Positions 2,961 through 48,700 of a stretch of DNA of 55,044 nucleotides are shown here, piece after piece. The position numbers and the translations under genes were made by a program. Source of the stretch: Candidatus Bathyarchaeota archaeon (GTDB lineage: Archaea; Thermoproteota; Bathyarchaeia; 40CM-2-53-6); the NCBI GenBank assembly GCA_005888745.1, contig VBBS01000027.1, positions 1 to 55,044 of the forward strand, written 5' to 3'. The notes under the pieces are model-generated. The model saw only the letters and a list, made by a program, of their open reading frames with translations. It ran no database searches and was not told the DNA's origin. Every line of letters starts with the position of its first letter. Position 1 is the stretch's first letter.

Positions 2961-3851
2961 TTGCCTGCAGACGAATCGCACGAGAGAGTTCAACCTCTTT
3001 GGGATCATATTTCCGAACTGTCGCGACGGGCGAAAGTTTGGATTTACTCGTTTGTGATTTCAACACTCCTTTACCTTCTGATCCCATCTGATTTTTCACT
3101 TCTGCAGAATCCGTTCCAAGGATATCATCCCATTATCACAGCGATACTTCTCGAGATCAAAACGAGGCTGTTGCCGTCCCAGTACACTCTGATTGGGGGA
3201 ACGATTACAGCACCTCTAGAAATAATCCTGGTAGCTGCGGCAGTGTTTGGATTTGCCACCAGCGTTCCTGTGCTCGCGTACGAGGTCTACAAGTTCATAG
3301 ATCCCGCTATCAAACCCAGCGAGAAACAGTCTGTATACCCCTTCGTTGCAGCATTTTCGATTCTATTCTTCGTAGGCGGCGCGTTCGCGTTTTTTGTCCT
3401 CTTGCCCTTCGTATTCTTCTTCTCTCTTCCCTTCTTCCAAGGTCTTGGAATATCCCCTTTCATCTACGCCGACCAATTCTACAATCTCGTTTTCTTCGTG
3501 ATCGTGGCCGCGGGTTTCGCCTTCACGATTCCCGTCTTCTTTGTCCTCCTGGTCAAAATGCACGTCCTGGGGACTAAGATGCTTACGAAGAATCGAAAGT
3601 ACGTCTGGGCCGTGACCTTGATTCTAACGGCGATCGCTTCGCCAGACGGCGGTCCCTTGGCAGACGTTGCCTTGTTTGTTCCGATAATCATACTCCTCGA
3701 AGGGTCTATCTGGTACGCAAAGAGGTACGAAAAAGGGCGCGACGAAGAAGAGCCCGGGAACGGGGCCACAGGAACCACATGCGTCTTTTGTGGAGGAGAT
3801 ATAGACGCAGGTGGGGTGTTCTGCGGTCGATGCGGAAAATCTAGGCTGTAA
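2961..3851 (+). CDS. tatC: Sec-independent (Tat) translocase TatC with C-terminal zinc ribbon
   Basis: TatC is the membrane receptor that recognises the twin-arginine signal. The protein has the N-terminal cytoplasmic segment ending in LWDHISELSRR and six hydrophobic segments (about residues 28-43, 75-105, 128-165, 172-195, 215-230, 233-248), with the conserved FIDPAIKPSEK loop and the TAIASPDGGPLAD motif near the last two helices, all as in archaeal TatC. Unusual: after a polar linker (KGRDEEEPGNGATG) the last 25 residues contain two CxxC pairs, CVFCGGD and CGRCG, which form a typical zinc ribbon. The TTG start at 2961 fits the promoter spacing and family N-terminus. Confidence 0.93.
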   Translation: MPADESHERVQPLWDHISELSRRAKVWIYSFVISTLLYLLIPSDFSLLQNPFQGYHPIITAILLEIKTRLLPSQYTLIGGTITAPLEIILVAAAVFGFATSVPVLAYEVYKFIDPAIKPSEKQSVYPFVAAFSILFFVGGAFAFFVLLPFVFFFSLPFFQGLGISPFIYADQFYNLVFFVIVAAGFAFTIPVFFVLLVKMHVLGTKMLTKNRKYVWAVTLILTAIASPDGGPLADVALFVPIIILLEGSIWYAKRYEKGRDEEEPGNGATGTTCVFCGGDIDAGGVFCGRCGKSRL

Positions 3852-4190
3852 AGACTAACTCCATCTTTCCGGAAATCTCCAAATCCGTTAATAGTTGCCG
3901 GTTCGAGGCTGGAACCAGATGATGAATTTCCGCAAATACATGCGGACGGAGCGTTCTCAGCCGACGCAATGACGAACGACATCGGGCGGGCTGATAATAG
4001 GACCTTGTCCGCCCGAATCCCATCTTTCCGAACTTTCATTCCAACTTTGAGCCTCCAGTACCTGTCGGACGCTCTAGTCTGCGTGGCAGCTGACCATTTC
4101 GAAGAAATATTATAACGAGACCAAAGAGAGCATTCCAAAGAAACGCCAAACAATCCCTAGTGATTCGATTTGATAGCGCCAAAATCGTCC
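3852..4190. other. Gap of about 340 bp without a confident gene
   Basis: Frames on both strands are open for long stretches here (on the plus strand in the same frame as tatC for 85 codons after its stop, on the minus strand 224 codons running into tatC), but neither translation resembles a known family, and the minus frame covers tatC itself, so composition probably explains both. An AT-rich stretch AAATATTATAACG at about 4105-4117 could be the promoter of the downstream regulator gene. I see no repeats or RNA-like folds. Confidence 0.4.
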
Positions 4191-5364: not shown

Positions 5365-6795
5365 ACAACGACATCTCACAGAGAAGCGCCCAAGATTTCA
5401 AAGGACCCAGTCGCTGACAATACTGACCTCTACGCTTTTGTTAGTCCCGACAAACCCGACACCGCAACCATTCTGGCCAACTACATTCCACTACAGGAAC
5501 CAGCCGGCGGCCCAAACTTCAACACCTTCGGGGACGATGTGCTCTACGAGATAGTAATCGACAACAATGGCGATGGAATAGAGGACATAACATACCAGTT
5601 CAGATTCAAGACCAAGATCGGAAATCCTGACACCTTTCTCTACAACACCGGTCCAATCGGCTCCCTCTCTGACTCCTCGTGGAATGTGAAACAGTTCTAT
5701 TCAGTCACAAAGGTGGTCGGACCCCGTAGGTCAAGGAGGTCCACGATACTAGGCAGCGACCTCGCAACCCCGCCCGTCAACGTTGGACCACGGTCAACAC
5801 CGAAGTATGCCGACCTAGCAAACGCGGCCATCAATGTATTGAGCGATGGTTCGACCGTATTCGCCGGCCAGAGGGACGAAGCATTCTTCGTAGATCTCGG
5901 AGCCATATTCGACCTTGGAGCGCTCAGACCGGTTCAGAATTTCCACCTCATACCAACACCAGCGGCTCCAGGCGTCGATGCTACAAAGGGATTCAGCGTT
6001 CACTCGATCGCGATACAAGTTGCCAAGAACAAACTGACATCAGATGGATCAAACCCCACTGACCCGCTAGGAAAGAACTCGACGATCGGTATTTGGGCGT
6101 CCGCCAGTAGACGAAGAGCCGCAATACTTCCAGGCGACAGGGAAGGCAACCAGTCAGGCGACAACGAGTCTGACACAGTCCTGACCGGACCGTTTACCCA
6201 GGTATCCCGATTAGGAATGCCTCTCATTAACGAAGTAATAATCCCGCTAGGGAAGAAAGACTTCTGGAACACCTTACTTCCCAGGTTTGACTCCCAGTTC
6301 CTCCAGTACTACCAGACACCAGAACTTCAGAAGCTGCTCCCAGTCCTCTACCCGGGGGTCTTCCCGAACCTGGCAGCGGTAGCTGAATCTCGCGCAGACC
6401 TCATCGCAATACTATTGACCGGAATACCCGCGGGTATTATTCCAGGGTTCCAAAACTTCACTGGGCCCCTCCAAGCTGACTATCTCCGCCTCAACCTCGC
6501 AATCCCTCCGAACACCACCAACCCCAACAGGCTAGGACTCGTAGGCGGGGACCCCGCAGGATTCCCGAACGGACGAAGAGTATTGGACGACGTTGTGGAC
6601 ATTGAAATCAAGGCGATCGCCGGAGCGACCCTTCCATTAGTAGACAAGAGCTTCGCGACAGACGGTGCTGTGAGCTTGGTAAGCCAAGGCATCTCACGTA
6701 ATCCGACCCAGCCACCCAATACCGCTCCGTTCCTCTCAGTGTTTCCATACCTCCCACATCCAGTCCCCGGCTACGAACACTCTCACGACCCCTAG
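5365..6795 (+). CDS. DUF4331 family protein without canonical start codon
   Basis: The family signature SHREAPKISKDPVADNTD and LYAFVSPD begins four codons after the TAG of the Tat-signal ORF and in the same frame; DNNGDGIEDITYQF and further DUF4331-like segments follow (DLGAIFDLGALRP, PLINEVIIPLGKKDFWN, GRRVLDDVVDIEIKA). DUF4331 proteins are extracellular or periplasmic and of unknown function. Between the TAG and the signature there is no ATG, GTG or TTG; the first canonical start is GTG 5539, which would remove the signature and 58 codons. An ACG at 5368 would give M-T-S-H-R-E, the start seen in relatives. Either UAG is read through to give a Tat-exported product of about 576 aa, or a non-canonical start is used, or the gene is broken. 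Stop is TAG. Confidence 0.8.
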   Translation, partial: TTTSHREAPKISKDPVADNTDLYAFVSPDKPDTATILANYIPLQEPAGGPNFNTFGDDVLYEIVIDNNGDGIEDITYQFRFKTKIGNPDTFLYNTGPIGSLSDSSWNVKQFYSVTKVVGPRRSRRSTILGSDLATPPVNVGPRSTPKYADLANAAINVLSDGSTVFAGQRDEAFFVDLGAIFDLGALRPVQNFHLIPTPAAPGVDATKGFSVHSIAIQVAKNKLTSDGSNPTDPLGKNSTIGIWASASRRRAAILPGDREGNQSGDNESDTVLTGPFTQVSRLGMPLINEVIIPLGKKDFWNTLLPRFDSQFLQYYQTPELQKLLPVLYPGVFPNLAAVAESRADLIAILLTGIPAGIIPGFQNFTGPLQADYLRLNLAIPPNTTNPNRLGLVGGDPAGFPNGRRVLDDVVDIEIKAIAGATLPLVDKSFATDGAVSLVSQGISRNPTQPPNTAPFLSVFPYLPHPVPGYEHSHDP

Positions 6796-6973
6796 TTGGG
6801 CCGACTTGCCGCCATCAAGGCCACACCCTCTACTCTCTTACGGCTAGTTCCGCGAGCGAGCGCCACTGCTTACGATTATCGAGTTTAGACCCTACCAGCT
6901 TGCGCTCTTGATCCAGCCGGGTCCGAGAATATGGCTTGGATCGTAATTAGTCACGGAAAATCATTTCAAAAGT
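6796..6973. other. Intergenic stretch upstream of purA
   Basis: About 215 bp separate DUF4331 from purA. No ORF, repeat or RNA fold is apparent apart from the promoter-like box listed next. The 3' part is A/T-rich (GATCGTAATTAGTCACGGAAAATCATTTC). Confidence 0.4.
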
Positions 6974-6979
6974 CTTATT
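6974..6979 (+). promoter_or_regulatory. TATA-like box of purA
   Basis: CTTATT preceded by an A-run (CAAAAGT) lies about 32 bp upstream of the TTG start of purA. The spacing fits an archaeal TATA/BRE promoter with a very short or absent leader. Pattern-based. Confidence 0.35.
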
Positions 6980-7010
6980 CTGCCGCAGTTCTACGCTGTT
7001 TGGATACCTG

Positions 7011-7982
7011 TTGCCCTGTACGGTCATTGTCGGAGGGTTCTTCGGAGACGAGGGGAAGGGGAAGATAGCCGCTTACCTAGCAATGAAAGACAAACCCGAC
7101 ATTTGCGTTAGGGGTGGAAACGGACCTAACGCTGGCCATACTGTAATCCACGGTGGAGTCCAGTACTCCCTCAGGCTCATCCCGAGCGGCTTCGTCAATC
7201 CTTCGACCCGTCTTCTCATCGGACCCGGGGTCCCCGTCGACCCTATCGTCTTACTCGACGAGCTTCGGAAAACCGATTCCGAACGCAGGATCGAGGTGGA
7301 CAATCAGTGCGCTATCGTTGAGCCACGCCACAAAGAGCAGGAATCGAGATCGGATCATTTGTCGAAGAAAGTTGGCTCTACTAAGAGTGGAGTCGGAGCG
7401 TGTAATGCAGAACGAGCGTTGCGAATGGCGAAATTGGCTCAGCAGATCCCGAGCCTCAAACCGTACGTAGGCGATACCGTCGGGGAAATCCAGAAAGCGC
7501 TTTCAGAGAACAAGAAGATCATGATTGAGGGGACTCAAGGCACCTTTCTCAGTCTCTATCACGGAACTTATCCTTACGTCACTTCCAAGGATACGACGGC
7601 TTCCGCAGCTTGCGCCGATGTCGGAGTGGGCCCTACACAAGTTGATGATGTCATGGTCATCTTCAAGGCATATGTGACCAGAGTGGGAGAAGGACCCCTG
7701 GAAGGCCAGCTAGATCGCGATGAAGTTGCACGTCGTGGGTGGACCGAGTTCGGGACTGTTACCGGCCGCGAGAGAAGAGCAGCGCCTTTCGATTTCAAGC
7801 TCGCCAAAAGAGCTGTCCAACTCAACGGCGCAACTCAGATCGCGCTTACAAAGCTCGACGTGCTATTCCCAAGCGCAAAAGGCGCACGTCGTATTGAAGA
7901 TCCCGATAAAGCCGCGAAGGCGTTCGTTTCAGAGATCGCGAAACAGACAGGGGTTCCAGTGATGCTTATCGGTACTGGTTAG
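7011..7982 (+). CDS. purA: Adenylosuccinate synthetase
   Basis: Joins IMP and aspartate with GTP to form adenylosuccinate, the first committed step to AMP. The phosphate loop VGGFFGDEGKGKIAAYLA at residues 7-24 carries the catalytic Asp, followed by GGNGPNAGHTV with the catalytic His, the switch region EGTQGTFLSLYHGTYPYVTS and GVGPTQVDDVMVIFKAYVTRVGEGP, and the guanine-binding KLDVLFP near the end. At 323 aa it is the short archaeal form, which lacks segments of the 430-aa bacterial enzyme. TTG start chosen because the P-loop follows directly. Single gene; the next gene is convergent with 2 bp between stops. Confidence 0.95.
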   Translation: MPCTVIVGGFFGDEGKGKIAAYLAMKDKPDICVRGGNGPNAGHTVIHGGVQYSLRLIPSGFVNPSTRLLIGPGVPVDPIVLLDELRKTDSERRIEVDNQCAIVEPRHKEQESRSDHLSKKVGSTKSGVGACNAERALRMAKLAQQIPSLKPYVGDTVGEIQKALSENKKIMIEGTQGTFLSLYHGTYPYVTSKDTTASAACADVGVGPTQVDDVMVIFKAYVTRVGEGPLEGQLDRDEVARRGWTEFGTVTGRERRAAPFDFKLAKRAVQLNGATQIALTKLDVLFPSAKGARRIEDPDKAAKAFVSEIAKQTGVPVMLIGTG

Positions 7983-25228: not shown

Positions 25229-25288
25229 AAGCGACATACGGGAAGGGAGTGAAGGCTCCATCAATGGGGTATAGTCTTTGGACAACAG

Positions 25289-26671
25289 CTGACAACGCGC
25301 CCCACCAGGCTGAACTATCTTCCGCTGGAAACTAGAAAGCAACCGATCGATGTTTTCGCAACAATCAGAAACAAGTTTGACATATGCTTCATTCTTGAGT
25401 CAGTTGAGGGACCGCGCGCCCTAACCAGGTACACGTTCCTAGGATTCGACCCGCAGAAGATCATTCGAACCTCAAAGAAACAGGCTGAGATCCTAGATCG
25501 GCAGAAATCCGAGAGACGGATCGAAAAGTGCCAAAACCCGCTAACCCTCTTGGCCAATCTCAACAGCCCGGTCAAGGAACGAACCCCGGGGGAAAGATAC
25601 GCTGGGGGCCTAGTCGGATACGCGTGCTACGACCTCGTACGTTCTTTTGAAAGAATCCCCAGATTGGGAAACAAAAACAACAGGTTTCCCGATATAGAAT
25701 TCGGACTCTTCGAGGACGGGATCGTTTTCGACCATCTCAGCCGCAACACGCACTATTTCTACCGTGAAGAGAACAGGATAGAAAAGGTCAGAGAAATACT
25801 GAGAGATTCGGCCGGCAACGATCAAGTCAGCTTCGGCAAGCCAAGGTCGAATGCTAGCCAGGAGGATTTCTGTGAACGAGTCGAAACGGCCAAGAACTAC
25901 ATTGAATCGGGAGACGTCTTCCAGGTAGTCCTGTCGAAGAGTTACAAAATTCCGTTCAAAGGCTCGCTTCTCCGGTTCTACCGTGCGCTGAGAAGGATCA
26001 ATCCGTCTCCCTACATGTACTACCTCAAGTTTGGCCACAGGGAAATCGTCGGGTCCAGCCCGGAGATGCTGGCTCGGAAGATCGGGCGCAACGCGGAGAG
26101 CTTCCCCATCGCTGGAACGCGGCCATGCACTGGCGATTCTGCCCGAAACAAAGCGCTGGCAGCCGAACTGCTCCAGGACGAGAAGGAACGGGCGGAACAC
26201 GTGATGCTCGTCGACCTAGCTCGGAACGATCTTGGCAGAGTCTGCGATTATGGGACCGTCAAGGTTCCCGAGTTTATGAGAGTTCAGGGCTATAGCCACG
26301 TCCAACACATTGTTTCGAGAGTCACTGGACAACTAAGAAAGAACGCAACTAGCCTAGACTTGTTCAGGGCCGTTTTCCCAGCAGGCACAGTTTCAGGAGC
26401 CCCCAAGGTTCGCGCGATGGAGATCATCGAGGAACTTGAAACCACTGCGAGAGGTCCTTACGCGGGAGCTGTTGGTTACTTCTCTGCCAATGGAAACGCT
26501 GATTTTGCGATAACGATCAGGACTCTTTGTGCCCAAGACGGATATTGCTATCTCCAGTCCGGTGCGGGAATTGTCGCCGATTCAGTGCCTGACCGGGAAT
26601 GGATCGAGTCGGAGAGAAAAACGGCCGCCTTGTTCACTGCCATAAATCAAGCTCAGGAGGAGCAACAGTGA
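25289..26671 (+). CDS. trpE: Anthranilate synthase component I, no canonical start codon
   Basis: Converts chorismate and ammonia (from TrpG) to anthranilate. The N-terminal regulatory strand with the Trp-sensing ILES motif (FDICFILESVEGPRALTRYT) and the catalytic C-terminal half (SPEMLARKIGRNAESFPIAGTR in part, HVMLVDLARNDLGRVC, GTVSGAPKVRAMEII, YFSANGNADFAITIRT) are complete. The first ATG/GTG/TTG in frame is TTG 25550, which would delete the ILES region. Upstream the frame is open to a TGA at about 25250 with only CTG (25289, 25310) or ATA as near-start codons; I use CTG 25289, giving 460 aa. A 30-codon ORF from GTG 25249 overlaps in another frame, so a frameshift is the alternative. Confidence 0.9.
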   Translation: MTTRPTRLNYLPLETRKQPIDVFATIRNKFDICFILESVEGPRALTRYTFLGFDPQKIIRTSKKQAEILDRQKSERRIEKCQNPLTLLANLNSPVKERTPGERYAGGLVGYACYDLVRSFERIPRLGNKNNRFPDIEFGLFEDGIVFDHLSRNTHYFYREENRIEKVREILRDSAGNDQVSFGKPRSNASQEDFCERVETAKNYIESGDVFQVVLSKSYKIPFKGSLLRFYRALRRINPSPYMYYLKFGHREIVGSSPEMLARKIGRNAESFPIAGTRPCTGDSARNKALAAELLQDEKERAEHVMLVDLARNDLGRVCDYGTVKVPEFMRVQGYSHVQHIVSRVTGQLRKNATSLDLFRAVFPAGTVSGAPKVRAMEIIEELETTARGPYAGAVGYFSANGNADFAITIRTLCAQDGYCYLQSGAGIVADSVPDREWIESERKTAALFTAINQAQEEQQ

Positions 26672-31599: not shown

Positions 31600-32079
31600 C
31601 TACAATAATCTGAAATCTTCCTTTACGGTTGTAAGGACGATATGGGTGTTCGTTCGTTCCACGAAGGGCATGGCTAGAAGTGCTTTAGTGAATTTGCTCA
31701 AGTCGTCTCGGCTCTTGAATTTCGCGATGACCATCGCATCGGTGAGTCCTGTAACGTCGTACACGGCTAGTACCTGAGGCATCTTGGCGACCTCCTTCTC
31801 CAGCTCGAGGAGTTTGCCTTTTGCGACGCTCACTTCTGTGATGGCGGTAAGCTGGAAGCCGATCTTGTCATGGTCGAACATCGCCGAGTAGCCGCGTATG
31901 ATTCCTGCTTTCTCCAGTTTTGCGGTTCTCGATTGGACTGTAGTTGTGGAGACGCCTAGCTTGTGCGCTAGCTCCCTGTAGGAGAGGCGAGCGTCGATGA
32001 GATACCAGTGAAGAATCTTCTTATCGAGATCGTCAAGGGCGATATCCTCGACCTTTAACTCGTCCTTCATGTTTGTCAT
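31600..32079 (-). CDS. Lrp/AsnC family transcriptional regulator
   Basis: 159 aa. N-terminal helix-turn-helix (LDDLDKKILHWYLIDARLSYRELAHKLG, read in parts, with recognition helix STTTVQSRTAKLEKAGII) and C-terminal RAM/ligand domain (VLAVYDVTGLTDAMVIAKFKS). Lrp proteins form octamers and respond to amino acids; lying convergent to the amino-acid block suggests, but does not show, that it regulates it. ATG 32079 overlaps the gatE TGA by 4 bp, so it is in the gatD-gatE operon. Confidence 0.9.
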   Translation of the reverse strand: MTNMKDELKVEDIALDDLDKKILHWYLIDARLSYRELAHKLGVSTTTVQSRTAKLEKAGIIRGYSAMFDHDKIGFQLTAITEVSVAKGKLLELEKEVAKMPQVLAVYDVTGLTDAMVIAKFKSRDDLSKFTKALLAMPFVERTNTHIVLTTVKEDFRLL

Positions 32080-33980
32080 GGTTTGACTTGTTCCAAACGG
32101 GTCCGCAGTAGTTCCGTGACTTGTCGAGGGTCGGCTCGTCCCCTCACCTCGCCCATTACCAGGTTCATCATTCTTCCTAGAGCTTTGGTACCGCTTTCTT
32201 GAACCAGGGTCTGATTGGATTCGACAACCTTGCTGATTATATTCTCTAGATCCGACCTGGTCAGCATTCGGAGGTTGAGCATTTCCACCGCTTCATCAGC
32301 GGCTCCGTCTGGATGGAAGGCGAGCCATTTGAGAATGTCGATAACAGACTCCTTTGCGGTTGCACCCTTGGAAACTAGGTCGAACCCTTGCTTGAGCTGG
32401 TCTTCCCGAACATTCTCCACGGGCACTTGTTCCCTTTGCAGGCTCCTCAGAGATTCTGTGAGGATCGTTGCTACGAAGCTGGGCGCGACCCCTTTAGTTC
32501 TGGCGACAATTTCCTCGAACGCGGGAAGATAGTCGGAATCCACGAGCTGAGTCGCTAGCTTGGGGCTGAGATCATACTTTTTCTCCAGTTCCTTGGCCAG
32601 CTCTTCCGGCATTCGGGGAAGGTTCTCCCATAACCGTTCGAGTAGGTCCTGGCCGATCTCAACCGGTGGGACATCGGTCTCCGGATACATTCTAGCGGCT
32701 CCAGGCCTCGGGCGCAGATAGACCGTGGTCCCGTCAGGGTTTGCCGCGCGTGTTTCTTCCGGAACCCGTTCCACGGCTTCCCGAGCACGTTCTTCAACTG
32801 CCCTCAATCCGTCTTTCGCATTGTCGAGACTATCTGCTACGATGACGAACCCGTCAAGCTCCCCACATCCGAGCATCTTCGCGGCTTCTTCGACATGGTT
32901 AGAGTCAATTCCATAAGCAGGAAGCTCGTCTGAGTGAAAGATTCCTCCAACCCCTCCCCAGAAGACGGCGCGTTTGGCCATCTCAGTTCCGAGCCGGATA
33001 TTGGGGATGAGTTCGCGCTTGAGCAGCCCTTTGAAACCGGGAAGTTTGAGGGCCATTGCTACTCCTCCTTGATTGAGAGCAGATTCGACTATCTTCGATT
33101 GTGAGCTTGCGAGAATGTTGGTGACGTCAATGAATTCCTCTTTGATATCCGAAGCCTTGACGTTTCTCTGTCGGAGTTCATCTCTGATCTCAAGTAGCCC
33201 GAGCTGTCTCTGAACCTCGTATGCTACAGCCTTGGAAACGAGTTCGAGCTCTTGGACCCCTTTTATCTCGATGAGGGCGCCGTTCTTGATCGATACGTTG
33301 AGGTCCTGCCGAATACTTCCTAGACCTCGTTTTACCTTCTTGGTTGCCCGGAGGATGCGGCCAATAGCGAATGCAACTTTTCCAGCTTGCTCTGGATCGT
33401 GGATTATTGGCCCAGTGGAGACTTCTATCAGTGGAACTCCAAGCCGATCTAGACGGAAGAATACCGAGGTCTTTGTGTCGCCTGTTTTGCGTCCCGCGTC
33501 CTCTTCTAGTGTCACTTGTTCTATGGGGACTTCTACTCCATCCACGGTTATGGACCCGTTGAGTGCGATGACAGCGGTTCGTTGGAATCCGGTGGTGTTG
33601 GATCCGTCGATGACCACTTTTCGCATAACGTGAATCTCGTCCAGCGGCTTTGCGTGCAGGAGCATGCTCGTGGTAAGGGCGGCATCCAGTGCTTCCGGGT
33701 TCGATGGGTGCGGAGGCTCCTCGTCCAGTTCTACGAGGCATGTGGTTTCCGGGTCCGCCTCGTAAGTGATGGTTTTGCCCTTGTGGAACTCGAAGAGAGC
33801 GGCTGGATCAATTTGGCCTAGCTCGCTTTGTGTGGGCCTAAGTCTCCGTTCGAAGGCGACTGTGGGAGGCTTTGTTGATAGAATGGTTGGACAGTCGCAG
33901 AAGAGCTTGTGCCCGGTGTCGAGCTGTCGGTGTATCTCGACGCCGACCTTGAGGCCGACGGCTCGATAATCTGGGGACGA
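32076..33980 (-). CDS. gatE: Glu-tRNA(Gln) amidotransferase subunit E, no canonical start
   Basis: GatE binds tRNA(Gln) and activates the Glu for amidation by GatD ammonia. The full N-terminus is present (VGLKVGVEIHRQLDTGHKLFC, RRLRPTQSELGQIDPAAL, CLVELDEEPPHPSNPEALDA), then MRKVVIDGSNTTGFQRT, GLGSIRQDLNVSI, the AspRS-like insert FHSDELPAYGID and a GatB/YqeY-type helical tail with the MMNLVMGEVRGRADPR end. From the gatD TAG (33981-33983) to the first ATG at 33665 there is no ATG, GTG or TTG, nor a near-cognate codon before the conserved region. Both genes are in the same frame, so UAG read-through would make a GatD-GatE fusion. 634 aa from the TAG, the usual GatE length. Confidence 0.92.
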   Translation of the reverse strand, partial: SSPDYRAVGLKVGVEIHRQLDTGHKLFCDCPTILSTKPPTVAFERRLRPTQSELGQIDPAALFEFHKGKTITYEADPETTCLVELDEEPPHPSNPEALDAALTTSMLLHAKPLDEIHVMRKVVIDGSNTTGFQRTAVIALNGSITVDGVEVPIEQVTLEEDAGRKTGDTKTSVFFRLDRLGVPLIEVSTGPIIHDPEQAGKVAFAIGRILRATKKVKRGLGSIRQDLNVSIKNGALIEIKGVQELELVSKAVAYEVQRQLGLLEIRDELRQRNVKASDIKEEFIDVTNILASSQSKIVESALNQGGVAMALKLPGFKGLLKRELIPNIRLGTEMAKRAVFWGGVGGIFHSDELPAYGIDSNHVEEAAKMLGCGELDGFVIVADSLDNAKDGLRAVEERAREAVERVPEETRAANPDGTTVYLRPRPGAARMYPETDVPPVEIGQDLLERLWENLPRMPEELAKELEKKYDLSPKLATQLVDSDYLPAFEEIVARTKGVAPSFVATILTESLRSLQREQVPVENVREDQLKQGFDLVSKGATAKESVIDILKWLAFHPDGAADEAVEMLNLRMLTRSDLENIISKVVESNQTLVQESGTKALGRMMNLVMGEVRGRADPRQVTELLRTRLEQVKP

Positions 33981-35315
33981 CTAGGAAGCCTCCACCAATG
34001 TTCTCGAAGTCATTTCACCTGCGACCGGGTGAAGCATCATCTCACGAATCTTATCAGCTGATTTGGTCTGGCCTGCAACCCACATCAGCTTGACAATTGC
34101 CGTTTCGGCGATCATGTCTTCAAGAGGAGTGACCCCCAAGTTGAGTAAGTCGCGTCCGGTGTTGTAGACGTTCATGTCGACGCGTCCCCATATCGTCTGG
34201 GAAGTCATGAAGATGGGAAGATCTTGCTTCAACGCTTTCTTCAGGGAATCGAATAAGTGTCTGGAAACGTGTCCTAGCCCGGTTCCTTCGACGACTATTC
34301 CGCGGGTTCCTGCAGATACGGCTGAGTCAATTATGCCAGTGTTGAACCCTGGGTAGAACTTGACCAGGTATGCATGTTGGTCAAAGCGAGATTTCAAGGC
34401 CAGCTTCCGGGTCTTATCTCTCTTCTGGATTCCGTTCGTCATTTCGATCTGGCCGGTATTCAGATCGTAACTTGCGATAGGCGTGGAATTGATAGACTTG
34501 AATGCGTCTCGACGACTCGTGTGACACTTTCGAACCCTAGTACCACGATGAGCAACGATGATATGGTCGGAAAGGTCTTGGTGCATAGCAACACCAACAA
34601 GGGCCATGTCGGCTCGGGCGGCGAGGGCGACTGCTCCCGTGAGGTTGGAGGCCGCGTCTGAGCTGGGACGATCGGAAGATCGCTGAGCGCCGACAAGCAG
34701 GACTGGAACAGCTAGGTTTGCAAGCGCGAAACTCAAAGCTGCCGCCGTATAGTGCAAAGTGTCTGTTCCATGGCTTATCACGACCCCTTCTGCACCGTCA
34801 GCTATCTTCTTGGCGACTTCTTCCGCCATGCCTTTCCAATGAGTCGGGCCTATGTTCTCGCTGTACTCGCTGAAGAGGATGTGAGCGTCTATTTCTGCGA
34901 TTGCTGAGAGTTCAGGGACGACGCTTGCGAGGTCGGCGGCTGTGAGTGCAGGCTGCACAGCACCAGTGCGATAGTCAACCCTACTGGCGATAGTTCCCCC
35001 GGTGCTTACTATGGCAACCATGGGTAATCCGACATGGTTCGCTGGTGGAGAAGGCTTAGTGAAATGCGGCTTCTCGCCCTGCCCGGTGACCTCCAGTTTT
35101 TCTGTTCTGTCGAGGGAGATGCCTATGTTGTAGCCATTCTTCATCTTCAAGACTATGTGAGCGTGATCGGAATATTCCGATCGAGGAATCAGGGTCCCTT
35201 CGAACACTTCACCCGATTTCGAGGTGAGACGGAGGATGCTACCGATCTTGGCCTTGGATTTCCTTAGCTGTTGAAGGACTGGCCCATGGTATCCTTCTAA
35301 CTCTCGGACAGTCAA
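33981..35315 (-). CDS. gatD: Glu-tRNA(Gln) amidotransferase subunit D
   Basis: Asparaginase-like subunit that releases ammonia from glutamine or asparagine. N-terminal GatD-specific barrel (about 1-85, GEVFEGTLIPRSEYSDHAHIVLK in part), then the asparaginase domain with VSTGGTIASRVDYRTGAV (catalytic Thr), SHGTDTLHYTAAAL (catalytic Thr/Asp), VLLVGAQRSSDRPSSDAA and VVEGTGLGHVS. The end VAGEMTSRTLVEAS matches the normal GatD C-terminus, so the TAG is at the natural end. TTG start at 35315. The gatE coding region continues in the same frame after the TAG. Confidence 0.95.
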   Translation of the reverse strand: MTVRELEGYHGPVLQQLRKSKAKIGSILRLTSKSGEVFEGTLIPRSEYSDHAHIVLKMKNGYNIGISLDRTEKLEVTGQGEKPHFTKPSPPANHVGLPMVAIVSTGGTIASRVDYRTGAVQPALTAADLASVVPELSAIAEIDAHILFSEYSENIGPTHWKGMAEEVAKKIADGAEGVVISHGTDTLHYTAAALSFALANLAVPVLLVGAQRSSDRPSSDAASNLTGAVALAARADMALVGVAMHQDLSDHIIVAHRGTRVRKCHTSRRDAFKSINSTPIASYDLNTGQIEMTNGIQKRDKTRKLALKSRFDQHAYLVKFYPGFNTGIIDSAVSAGTRGIVVEGTGLGHVSRHLFDSLKKALKQDLPIFMTSQTIWGRVDMNVYNTGRDLLNLGVTPLEDMIAETAIVKLMWVAGQTKSADKIREMMLHPVAGEMTSRTLVEAS

Positions 35316-45558: not shown

Positions 45559-46983
45559 CTAGGAGAAGAAGAGCCGTGTTTCTCCCATAGTCCTGACGTC
45601 CAGCTGTTCCACGTCGACCATCATTGGCAGGTCCTTGACGACATTGCCCAAGAGTAGGCACCGCCTAGTGGGGATTCCTCTGACGAGGTAGCGTATCGTG
45701 TCACTGTCCGCCTTTGCCACCTTACCGATAGCCTCAATGTCATGTTCGTTTGTGAAGTTGAAGATGAACACGTTGTCCGCTTGCCTGTAGATCGCTTCCT
45801 GGACAGTGTCGGGCTGGTTTGTGATGAACGTGGTGAACAATCCAATGTGCCTCATCCGCGTAACAATATCATCCCAGTAAGTATCACGCAGATACAGGTG
45901 CGCTTCCTCTGCAAAGAGAAAAGCAGCCTTGAGCCAGTTGGAGGAGAGAATCTTGGTCAGTTCTCCAAGAAAGATCTCGACGAGGATGCGTCGGACGATT
46001 TGGCTCTGATTCTTCAGATTAACCACTAGGACCCCGCCTCCCTCTATAGTGTGAAGAATCCGCTCTTCAGTTAGCGGGTTCGCCTCATCAAACAATCCCG
46101 ATTCCATCAAGACCTGCAGCCTAGAAGTCAGAGCTTCGCGGACGCTGTCGTGGCAGCTCCACGACTGTACCGCTTGAATCACCGTTGGCAGAGTCAAGTC
46201 TCCCCGAGCCTCGAGATCCTTCCAGATAGTCGTGAAGACCTTCGACGAGGTCGCTGGCAGATCCAGAGCGTGACTCAGGACCCCGGCGACAGTTCTCAAC
46301 CCTAGTTTTGCCATGGAGAAGTTTAGGCCGCTTCTCGGCGCGAGTACGGTCAGCCGGGCGGAAGATTGTCGTCCATCTTTCGATTTGTGCAGGTTGATGT
46401 ATTCTCCGTTAACGTCTAGCACGATGCAAGGAGCGCCCCATCCTGCCATGGACAGCAGTAGAAGTTTTGCCAGGTGAGATTTTCCAGAGCCCTTTCTTCC
46501 GGTGATTATGTTGAGACCGCCATCGAGTCCGCTGGCATCTACGCTTATTGGCTCGCCATCATTGTGTCCGAGCTTGACCGGCATCTTTCCCCCGTTCATT
46601 ATCAGCTTGTTGACTGCATAAGGTCGGATCTTTGATGATGTGCGTGATGGCAACCATGAAGTGCTAGGCGAAAGACTCCCGTCTTGAGCAATGGTTCCTC
46701 GAATCTTGCAGACCGCCAACCTCGTGTCTTTCAATGCGTCTACTTGGCTCGAAATGTTCAGTGGGTCTACGTCCTCCCCTGAAAGATCCCCGTCTGTCAT
46801 CACGTCTCTCAGAATGTCCTCCAAGACCCCGGGGACGTTGGCGTATTGGAGATCTATTGCTTGGACAAGGAGTCCCCTCGATTGAGATTGGTCTTCGATG
46901 ACGAAATAGTCGCCCTTGTGAACATGCTCGTCCGGGAAGGCGATAAGTTGAACCTCATCCGCTTCCTTCCGGTAAATCCGCAT
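45559..46983 (-). CDS. herA: HerA-like DNA translocase ATPase
   Basis: 474 aa. N-terminal beta-barrel HAS-like domain (about 1-140), RecA-like ATPase with Walker A GRKGSGKSHLAKLL (about 162-175), Walker B FLFAEEAHLYL (about 354-364), and sensor/arginine regions ITNQPDTVQEAIY and RQADNVFIFN. HerA forms hexamers that pump DNA and activate NurA during end resection. The ATG directly follows the nurA stop (TAGATG), so the two are co-translated. Confidence 0.9.
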   Translation of the reverse strand: MRIYRKEADEVQLIAFPDEHVHKGDYFVIEDQSQSRGLLVQAIDLQYANVPGVLEDILRDVMTDGDLSGEDVDPLNISSQVDALKDTRLAVCKIRGTIAQDGSLSPSTSWLPSRTSSKIRPYAVNKLIMNGGKMPVKLGHNDGEPISVDASGLDGGLNIITGRKGSGKSHLAKLLLLSMAGWGAPCIVLDVNGEYINLHKSKDGRQSSARLTVLAPRSGLNFSMAKLGLRTVAGVLSHALDLPATSSKVFTTIWKDLEARGDLTLPTVIQAVQSWSCHDSVREALTSRLQVLMESGLFDEANPLTEERILHTIEGGGVLVVNLKNQSQIVRRILVEIFLGELTKILSSNWLKAAFLFAEEAHLYLRDTYWDDIVTRMRHIGLFTTFITNQPDTVQEAIYRQADNVFIFNFTNEHDIEAIGKVAKADSDTIRYLVRGIPTRRCLLLGNVVKDLPMMVDVEQLDVRTMGETRLFFS

Positions 46984-48090
46984 CTAGGCCACGTACCTGC
47001 TCGTTCCGAAGGGTCCGAACAATGATCTTCTGAGGTTCGGCCGGGCTTGAAGACTGACATGATGGTTACTGGCAACGAATCGCTGGACTGCGAGGATTTC
47101 GTTGGCGGTGAACGTGCTGAAGATGTGAGCTATCCTCAGCGTCTCAGGATAGCCATGGAAGATCACATCGGTCCCCGCAACTCGGCCAAGTGCTATTAGC
47201 GACCGCTGTTCATCAGCATCACGATCGATATCGGTGCGGAACAGGAATCCGTCCGGTGAAAGTTTCGACACGCAGACTCGCCCGAGGAATCTGATCGGAT
47301 ACGCTGGATACTCGTTCTCCACAACAGATGTTATGTCGATGACGTGGGGGACTTTCTCGACGTCGAAGAAGCCGAGAATATTCTTCCCACCAACCGTAAG
47401 CTGCGTTGATTTGGAGAGAGCGATGACAATGCTGTTGTTGTTGCGGGCCGTGGAGAGGATCCGCTGGACCCTGCTGGAAGGATTGTCTGGAGTCCCAGCG
47501 GTCAATGATCCATCTAGCAGCACTATTCCGTCCTTGACGGTGACCGCGAGTTCTTCCTGGACCCAGCGTTCCACGTGATTTCTTAGCTTTGTCAGCACTC
47601 GGAGAGTCTTGACTGATAATCCACCGAAGGCTCGTGACTCGTCGTCTCTGTAATTTTCTTGTTGGCCATCGGAGTTTGGAATATGAAATAGCAATGGTCC
47701 CCAGCGCGTGAAGGCAATCCTGTCGGGTTGTCTCCAGACGGCGACCGCGCGGATGGCGAAGATCATTCCAGTGTCGGTTTCACCGATCTTGACGCTCGAT
47801 GCGTCGCAGGCAGCAATTGGAACCGATTCTCTCAACGGGTTGATTGGGCAACGTTTCAAGCCCATCGCGATCGAGGAGCCTCCGATCTCCAGTTGCTCGT
47901 CAGAATCTCCATCGTCCAAGCCCATGTCCATGAGGGACACAGCTCGAGGGTTGAGAGTAGATCCCCGCAGCGATTGCATCGATCTAGTCGAGAGTTGAAG
48001 GAGCGCTTCCGGAATCGGATGTTGAAGCTCTTCCGGTATGCTTTTTAATTGTGCGAGAGGTTCAGTTAGTTCCTGGGTGCGGTGGAGCAA
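46984..48090 (-). CDS. nurA: NurA-type 5'-3' nuclease
   Basis: 368 aa. Two Asp motifs of NurA: IAACDASSVKIG (about residue 93) and IVLLDGSLTAGTP (about residue 195), plus VIALSKSTQL and the C-terminal HVSLQARPNLRRS region. NurA digests DNA inside the HerA ring to produce 3' tails. Order wHTH-wHTH-nurA-herA on one strand; mre11 and rad50, usual neighbours, are absent from the window. Confidence 0.88.
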   Translation of the reverse strand: MLHRTQELTEPLAQLKSIPEELQHPIPEALLQLSTRSMQSLRGSTLNPRAVSLMDMGLDDGDSDEQLEIGGSSIAMGLKRCPINPLRESVPIAACDASSVKIGETDTGMIFAIRAVAVWRQPDRIAFTRWGPLLFHIPNSDGQQENYRDDESRAFGGLSVKTLRVLTKLRNHVERWVQEELAVTVKDGIVLLDGSLTAGTPDNPSSRVQRILSTARNNNSIVIALSKSTQLTVGGKNILGFFDVEKVPHVIDITSVVENEYPAYPIRFLGRVCVSKLSPDGFLFRTDIDRDADEQRSLIALGRVAGTDVIFHGYPETLRIAHIFSTFTANEILAVQRFVASNHHVSLQARPNLRRSLFGPFGTSRYVA

Positions 48091-48157
48091 GGTTAGATTC
48101 CCCCAGTATTGGGCGGGAGATCCCCCTCTCCCGCCTGTCCCCGCACCCTCTCTAGTA

Positions 48158-48700
48158 TCATCCTGGCGCGGTCACCTTCGTTTCATGCTGGGACGCGGCG
48201 GCACGAGCCGTGACGCCTCTCGCGATCTCGTGTGATTTGCGGATCCCCTGGATTGAGAGCCTGTAGTTTCCTTGGCTAGTCCGCTCTACAACACCGGTCT
48301 TTCCCATCATCGCTAGGGTGTTGCGGACTGTCTTGACGGATTTTCCAATAGCTTTGCTGATATTCTCAGGGCTCATGTCGACGCTAGGTCGAGTGCCAAC
48401 TGCATGCGCAACCCGGGTGGCTAGTAGGACAAGTGAGATCGAGTGCTCTGCTGACATCTCCGGCTTCAGAAATACAGCCTCCCCCTCAGGCGTTAGCTTG
48501 ACGGTCTCAGAGAGATCGTCCACCATCGAAGAGTAGTCTGGAGAGAAGGTCAATTTCGACGCGAGCGAATAGTTGGGTAGGACTTGCGCTGCGAACCGCA
48601 TGACCTCTTGCACAACCGTCTCTAGGTCGCCTTCGACGGTATGTTTGATGTCTCCCCATTCGATCTGAACCTTGATCTTCGGACGGTCTGTTATCGCTTT
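48158..48700 (-). CDS. Winged-helix protein, second paralogue; no canonical start
   Basis: The first canonical start, GTG 48613, gives 151 aa, but similarity to the preceding paralogue begins upstream: IKVQIEWGDIKHTVEGDLETVV here aligns with IEVTVRHNGAETKV..SPENVV there, and YSLASKLTFSPD with LELASKLVLSVD. That N-terminal stretch has no ATG/GTG/TTG and is preceded directly by the TAG of the paralogue in the same frame (ATA at 48694 is the only near-start). C-terminal winged helix at about residues 95-150 (SPENISKAIGKSVKTVRNTLAMMGKTGVVER, in part). Probably regulates or assists nurA-herA; 67 bp upstream of nurA. Confidence 0.75.
   Translation of the reverse strand, partial: KAITDRPKIKVQIEWGDIKHTVEGDLETVVQEVMRFAAQVLPNYSLASKLTFSPDYSSMVDDLSETVKLTPEGEAVFLKPEMSAEHSISLVLLATRVAHAVGTRPSVDMSPENISKAIGKSVKTVRNTLAMMGKTGVVERTSQGNYRLSIQGIRKSHEIARGVTARAAASQHETKVTAPG

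Follow-up and report, generated by a model that had tools for sequence, protein, structure and literature searches.

A gatE gene without a canonical start codon directly after the gatD stop codon in Bathyarchaeota, and its probable initiation at an NCG codon

The window analyzed here, a stretch of 55,044 nucleotides (bases 1 to 55044 of contig C20) from the genome of a Candidatus Bathyarchaeota archaeon, carries the neighboring genes gatD and gatE, which encode subunits D and E of the Glu-tRNA(Gln) amidotransferase. All positions are given in window coordinates. In this genome (G000; 2.2 Mb in 75 contigs, with an estimated completeness of about 93% and an estimated contamination of 3.8%), a lone TAG separates the two genes, which are in the same frame, and gatE has no canonical start codon. 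Comparison with related genomes leads us to think that GatE is probably a separate protein, initiated by termination-reinitiation at an NCG codon directly after the gatD stop. Following the TAG, the frame reads TCG TCC CCA GAT TAT CGA GCC GTC GGC CTC AAG GTC GGC, and 105 codons pass before the first ATG, GTG, or TTG is reached (an ATG at 33665). GatD and GatE both score far above the cut-offs of their curated models, and the 201 bases around the junction are present as a single copy in the genome. The shared frame, the lone TAG, and the distant ATG had been reported in a first-pass annotation of this DNA, and they are confirmed by the sequence and by conservation in 17 genomes. Its claim that no near-cognate start exists was too strong, as TCG is one base away from TTG and sits at the position of the start codon of other archaea.

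A search for GatE gave some match in 60 of 61 genomes (a few of them weak only), and 30 loci were taken. The set of 17 genomes used for the junction, all Bathyarchaeota MAGs, consists of 16 of the 18 genomes of the genus, our own included, and G018, which belongs to another genus of the same family. The genus genomes G001 (GatE unmatched) and G011 (partial match) offered no N-terminus and were left out. In all 17 genomes the gatD stop is found at the same codon (TAG in 13, TAA in 4), and it is directly followed by TCG (13 genomes), GCG (2), CTG (1), or TTG (1). Our genome and its 14 nearest relatives (13 from the genus and G018) account for the 13 TCG and the 2 GCG codons. The other two junctions read TAA CTG in G002 and TAA TTG in G009, whose gatE is split over two frames in the assembly. 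In 16 of the 17 genomes, no canonical start occurs from the in-frame stop upstream to the point where the conserved GatE N-terminus sets in. The first-pass annotation had named an ATG, GTG, or TTG at the junction of a relative as the observation that would speak against it; G009 alone has one, at the same codon, and the oddity remains in the other 16. The TTG of G009 at the codon after the stop shows which codon is the gatE start. Elsewhere in the family, gatD of G020 (third genus) ends in a different frame, with the junction TAG CA ACA ACG TCG CAA ACA GAC TAT, and gatE is still without a canonical start, and in G019 (fourth genus) gatE begins with ATG. A wider set of GatE sequences comprised 80 loci, of which 12 belong to the group with the odd start. 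Five of the other 68 were dropped (three were cut off and two had a broken N-terminal frame), leaving 63; one of these, L111, probably represents G019 from the same family. A canonical start is found nearby in all 63, exactly at the position of the NCG codon in 46 (ATG in 29, TTG in 13, GTG in 4) and at most 6 codons upstream or 3 codons downstream of it in the remaining 17. The records with the odd arrangement include nine Bathyarchaeota isolates named BA_x (BA_7 being the TTG case), two "13_1_40CM" Crenarchaeota bins, and one Centralia bin, and these names suggest a soil source and more than one project.

In all 17 genomes codon 0, which directly follows the stop, fits NYG and has G as its third base, while third bases are variable in the codons further on. 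Codon -5 encodes V, M, A, or T but without exception has G as its last base, and GAG occupies codon -4 throughout; the GGAG core of a Shine-Dalgarno (SD) sequence is therefore kept at the nucleotide level. The anti-SD energy at the GGAGG before gatE is -9.3, compared to a median of -3.9 for canonical genes. Folding of the junction from 15 genomes revealed no conserved RNA fold. Ahead of the first NTG, 35 of the 52 changes in gatE relative to G017 are at third positions, which is the pattern of a living gene. No match to GlnRS above the model cut-off was found in any of the 21 genomes searched, our own included, with a match below the cut-off in 19 of them; 4 of 14 control genomes have a match above it. 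Without a GlnRS above the cut-off, these archaea presumably need the GatDE amidotransferase.

In the mechanism that we favor, ribosomes that terminate on gatD would stay on the mRNA, held by the GGAGG in the end of gatD, and would restart at the NCG codon, which is UCG in the majority of the genomes and GCG in two of them. The usual initiator tRNA with its CAU anticodon would serve as Met-tRNAi, so that the first residue of GatE would be methionine. Coupling to gatD termination would allow the identity of the start codon to relax. The gene pair has the features of a termination-reinitiation pair, with a distance of 0 nt (the criterion being about 10 nt), the same strand, and products that are subunits of one complex. 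According to the accessible part of a study of Haloferax and Escherichia coli (PMC10666635), such coupling is strongly distance dependent and favors subunits of one complex, and both properties fit GatD/GatE and PheS/PheT. Comparable laxity is evident at ACG in pheT and ATC or ATT in topA, and at ACG in DUF4331, scpB, and HerA-like genes of single genomes.

These other genes were found by comparison with their orthologs. For pheT there are 17 loci in the family, one of them without its N-terminus, and the remaining 16 have ACG (14 loci), ATG (G003), or CTG (G019) at the start position. For topA, 14 of the 15 family loci have an N-terminus; ATC (7) or ATT (2) directly follows a TAG, ATG is present in G014 and G017, and G003, G018, and G019 have a nearby GTG. 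In our genome, scpB has ACG where most orthologs have NTG; the genes with ACG or ATA in a single genome and mostly NTG in the orthologs are 5365, 62028, 48158, and 45559. A tally of start columns over 112 genes misplaced some columns, gatE among them, and was used just for single cases read by eye. One candidate was withdrawn: trpE had initially been listed among the ATA starts. Its leader (25253-25340), however, holds an ATG GGG TAT out of the TrpE frame and a GGGG/CCCC hairpin, both conserved in 8 genomes. Its 5' end is ambiguous and may represent a leader peptide, a frameshift, an intron, or an ATA start.

An automated test gave a broader view. Contigs C20 and C46 of our genome were compared with the matching contigs of relatives, and an ortholog pair was flagged when at least 10 conserved codons, with mostly third-position changes, preceded the first NTG of either member. 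This was the case for 17 of 188 pairs with G013 (13 of 118 on C20 and 4 of 70 on C46), and on the same contigs for 5 of 99 and 3 of 69 pairs with G005, 6 of 69 with G017, and 3 of 24 with G018. In the control genera, the test flagged 0 of 67 pairs in g7 and 1 of 52 in the AT-rich g8, where we think that the flagged short open reading frame (ORF) is no gene. Fisher p values are 0.0046 against the 67 g7 pairs and 0.0014 against all 119 control pairs. The GC content of g7 is similar, at 0.54 and 0.56 in the measured loci versus 0.52 and 0.51 here. When read by eye, 11 of the 17 flagged pairs with G013 were convincing: 10 of the 13 on C20 (95729 was possible, 62599 and 114945 were not convincing) and topA among the 4 on C46 (36056 and 43853 were undecided, and 53802 was not convincing). 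Before the third-position filter, the raw test, counted by each member, marked 28 and 23 of 118 pairs for C20/G013, 16 and 15 of 70 for C46/G013, 24 and 22 of 99 for C20/G005, and 4 and 5 of 52 in the g8 control; most of these unfiltered marks look like untranslated leaders. Seven of 11 hand-picked noncanonical starts on C20 and C46 lie between -25 and +15 nt from an upstream stop, compared to 34 of 180 canonical starts (p of 0.0022, with the later ambiguous trpE included among the 11). The median anti-SD energy is -6.6 for these 11 (8 of them at or below -5), -3.9 for 177 canonical starts (41%), and -2.7 for random places (20%). The features of the window are listed in Table 1.

Table 1. Features of the gatD-gatE junction and other genes of interest in the window
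Feature	Position	Strand	Remarks
gatD, Glu-tRNA(Gln) amidotransferase subunit D	33981..35315	-	TTG start, TAG stop; TIGR02153, E 1.2e-162
gatE, Glu-tRNA(Gln) amidotransferase subunit E	32076..33980	-	NF003107, E 1.6e-247; best stretch residues 3-631 of 633
gatD stop TAG, immediately 5' of gatE	33981..33983	-	TAG 13, TAA 4 in 17 genomes
Proposed gatE start TCG	33978..33980	-	TCG 13, GCG 2, CTG 1, TTG 1 (17 genomes); NTG start site in 46/63 other loci
SD-like GGAGG within gatD 3' end	33989..33993	-	8 nt before TCG
First in-frame canonical gatE start, ATG within conserved protein	33663..33665	-	ORF analysis
DUF4331 gene, ACG at start position	5368..5370 (gene 5365-6795)	+	Second codon after TAG of upstream ORF; PF14224, E 5.8e-136; ATG/TTG/GTG in 6/7 genomes compared
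ATA at start position of gene 48158-48700	48692..48694	-	ATG or TTG in 8/10 genomes compared
HerA-like gene	45559..46983	-	Adjoins TAG of NurA-like gene (46984-48171); ATG here, ACG in G010
tatC start TTG	2961..2963	+	CTG in G013, G015
ArsR-like regulator start TTG	4170..4172	+	CTG in G013, G015
trpE frame	25253..26671	+	Canonical start absent until codon 99; 5' end with a conserved hairpin and an ATG out of frame

The first-pass annotation had offered three ways out: read-through giving a GatD-GatE fusion, an unfamiliar start mechanism, or a sequence error. The second has gained from the comparison, and the other two have lost. Read-through of the stop would make a gatE start unnecessary. In 17 genomes from two genera the genes share a frame and are parted by a single stop, which is what a fusion would look like. 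The kind of stop varies between TAG and TAA, whereas recoding would be expected to keep one kind (pyrrolysyl-tRNA synthetase and tRNA(Pyl) were not searched for). Neither serine nor alanine needs a final G in its codon, yet the codon following the stop has this G in every genome; the SD sequence is kept, and G009 has a TTG at this codon. Furthermore, pheT and scpB are equally odd, and in both cases the preceding gene is read in a different frame (distances of +1 and -23). Because in G020 the frames of gatD and gatE differ and a canonical start is still missing, we consider a read-through fusion as a conserved trait unlikely.

C-to-U editing of the mRNA, which would turn NCG and CTG into NUG as known for plastid ACG starts, seems to us slightly less probable still. 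Each of ACG, TCG, GCG, and CTG can be derived from an NTG codon by putting C in place of T, and the orthologs often have NTG. This type of editing could not convert the ATC or ATT of topA, the ATA of 48158, or the TTA of a thiolase gene into NUG, and because of the ATC and ATT of topA we dropped editing as the sole cause. That the UAR stop codon would itself serve as the start codon is very unlikely: it has a workable distance of 5 nt from the SD sequence, but the starts of most other loci (46 of 63) align one codon later, as does the TTG of G009.

An mRNA intron whose splicing would supply the start codon is more improbable again. The tRNA genes of this genome have introns, and hairpin-bounded inserts resembling bulge-helix-bulge introns occur in purA and, among other Bathyarchaeota, in gatE, but the gatD-gatE junction lacks a conserved fold in 15 genomes and its spacing is the same as in relatives with ordinary starts. 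The least probable reading of all is that the gene is dead or that the sequence or its assembly is wrong: the genome is in 75 contigs, with the completeness and contamination given above, but judged from the sequences an error is excluded by conservation of the arrangement in 17 genomes, with named records from differently named projects, and the third-position changes in gatE speak against a dead gene.

The inserts are worth describing in their own right. The orthologs of purA (window 6951-7982) in G017:C56, G018:C57, and G003:C1 (L152-L158, L170-L175, and L176-L179) have an out-of-frame insert of about 23 nt near the start, located within a hairpin with a 3-nt bulge and a second bulge seen by eye. 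Six other genomes that were inspected lack the insert, and the flanking frames match the orthologs. The insert resembles an mRNA intron of the bulge-helix-bulge type within a protein gene. A second candidate mRNA intron is the hairpin-bounded out-of-frame insert near residue 18 in gatE of L093 and L095, two loci from other Bathyarchaeota.

Components of the initiation machinery were inspected as well. The exact pattern of the initiator tRNA gene, GGGCTCATAACCC, with anticodon CAU, is present in 16 of the 18 genomes of the genus. A search with a free anticodon and at most 3 mismatches matched once in each of 11 of 13 genus genomes, every time with CAU, and found no variant anticodon. At the gene level, an altered initiator tRNA is not supported in the genomes searched. 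The D and T arms of the initiator tRNA genes (G000:C43:113654-113666 and relatives L185-L201) carry differing sequence, as though they contained introns. Introns are also predicted in several further tRNAs, and a call of tRNA-SeC(tca) is doubtful; ARAGORN found no tRNA in the window.

The number of genes for aIF1 (SUI1) is striking. Among the 21 genomes of the family, 14 have three matches (in G002 two of the three are partial), G004, G011, G016, and G020 have two, G007 and G012 have one, and G019 has none, whereas a single match is the rule in the other families of Bathyarchaeia (33 of 40 genomes, with no match in the remaining 7). In our genome the genes are G000:C46:35591, C43:496, and C43:18496. 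In a tree of few columns, the additional copies are separated from the ordinary one with full support, and both extra copies of our genome have a solved aIF1 as their nearest relative by sequence. The stretch that probably corresponds to basic loop 1 of aIF1 reads RKWGKPAT in copy 1, RRWGKPVT or close to it in copy 2, and HHSGRLVT, HHTGRLVT, or a longer HH(R/H)SGREVT in copy 3. By comparison, aIF1A does not follow the trait, with one match in 18 of the 21 family genomes, and was rejected as the tracking factor. In the accessible text of PMC6237735, aIF1 promotes discrimination against noncanonical starts in archaea, and variations of the loop are described in the reinitiation factors eIF2D and DENR. 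Part of another study (PMC3828320) reports a Haloferax with two aIF1 genes, one of which is dispensable. Our observation is a correlation, and the extra aIF1 paralogs may set the laxity of the start. It is conceivable, although on balance doubtful, that stop-coupled genes use a second, lax mode of start selection that accepts NCG and near-cognate codons, with the two extra paralogs (one of which has HHSGRLVT or a similar stretch in place of RKWGKPAT at what would be loop 1) as dedicated factors comparable to DENR and eIF2D in eukaryotes.

Several points weigh against reinitiation at the NCG codon. The support for it is all comparative and comes from sequence. The gatE of G008 contains a GTG as its codon 7, which encodes the first residue of the conserved VGL. 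Roughly 6 of the 17 flagged pairs were not convincing, and the g7 control pair is slightly closer, with a mean identity of 89% compared to 85% and 84%. The association with upstream stops is partly due to ascertainment, since a missing NTG is noticed only when an in-frame stop is nearby. Outside the family, 10 of 13 pheT loci have ATG or TTG, but CTG is found in G024 (L324) and G029 (L326) and ACG in G026 (L327), and therefore the extra aIF1 copies cannot explain everything. Finally, a CUG start in E. coli reaches 0.86% of AUG in the available part of PMC11497404. With starts of this kind so weak in E. coli, it is difficult to account for good expression from UCG unless a special factor is involved.

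If reinitiation at these codons is true, conserved UCG, GCG, and ACG starts in needed genes such as gatE and pheT would place a noncanonical archaeal event at initiation. As far as the accessible part of PMC8211752 goes, noncanonical events in Archaea have been demonstrated just at elongation and termination. Among the literature matches listed, mostly outside subscription papers, there was no report of UCG, GCG, or ACG starts in archaea. It would mean that permanent loss of the middle base of start codons is possible and that a basic rule of how genes begin is bent in a family of uncultured archaea, and gene finders would likely truncate such genes. It also makes testable whether the aIF1 copies and their loop 1 set the stringency of the start codon.

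Some known systems resemble the arrangement described here. E. coli infC begins at AUU, a rare non-AUG start. It is likewise a needed gene with a conserved near-cognate start, whereas in our case the mismatch is in the middle base (UCG, GCG, and ACG), the oddity extends to several genes, and the organism is archaeal. Plastid genes have NCG at the start position in the DNA as well, with ACG edited by C-to-U conversion to AUG (PMC9845219, in the part available), but the ATC, ATT, and ATA starts of the same Bathyarchaeia genomes are not explained in this way, and the starts described here are known from DNA alone. The work on start fidelity concerns the same factor, aIF1, which most genomes of this family have in three versions, but the accessible text of PMC6237735 does not tie extra copies to noncanonical starts. 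A further parallel is termination-reinitiation in Haloferax and E. coli, where the start also lies a few nucleotides from the upstream stop and the products are often subunits of one complex; in the portion of PMC10666635 at hand those starts are canonical, with ATT as a merely possible rare case, whereas in gatE and its companions they are noncanonical.

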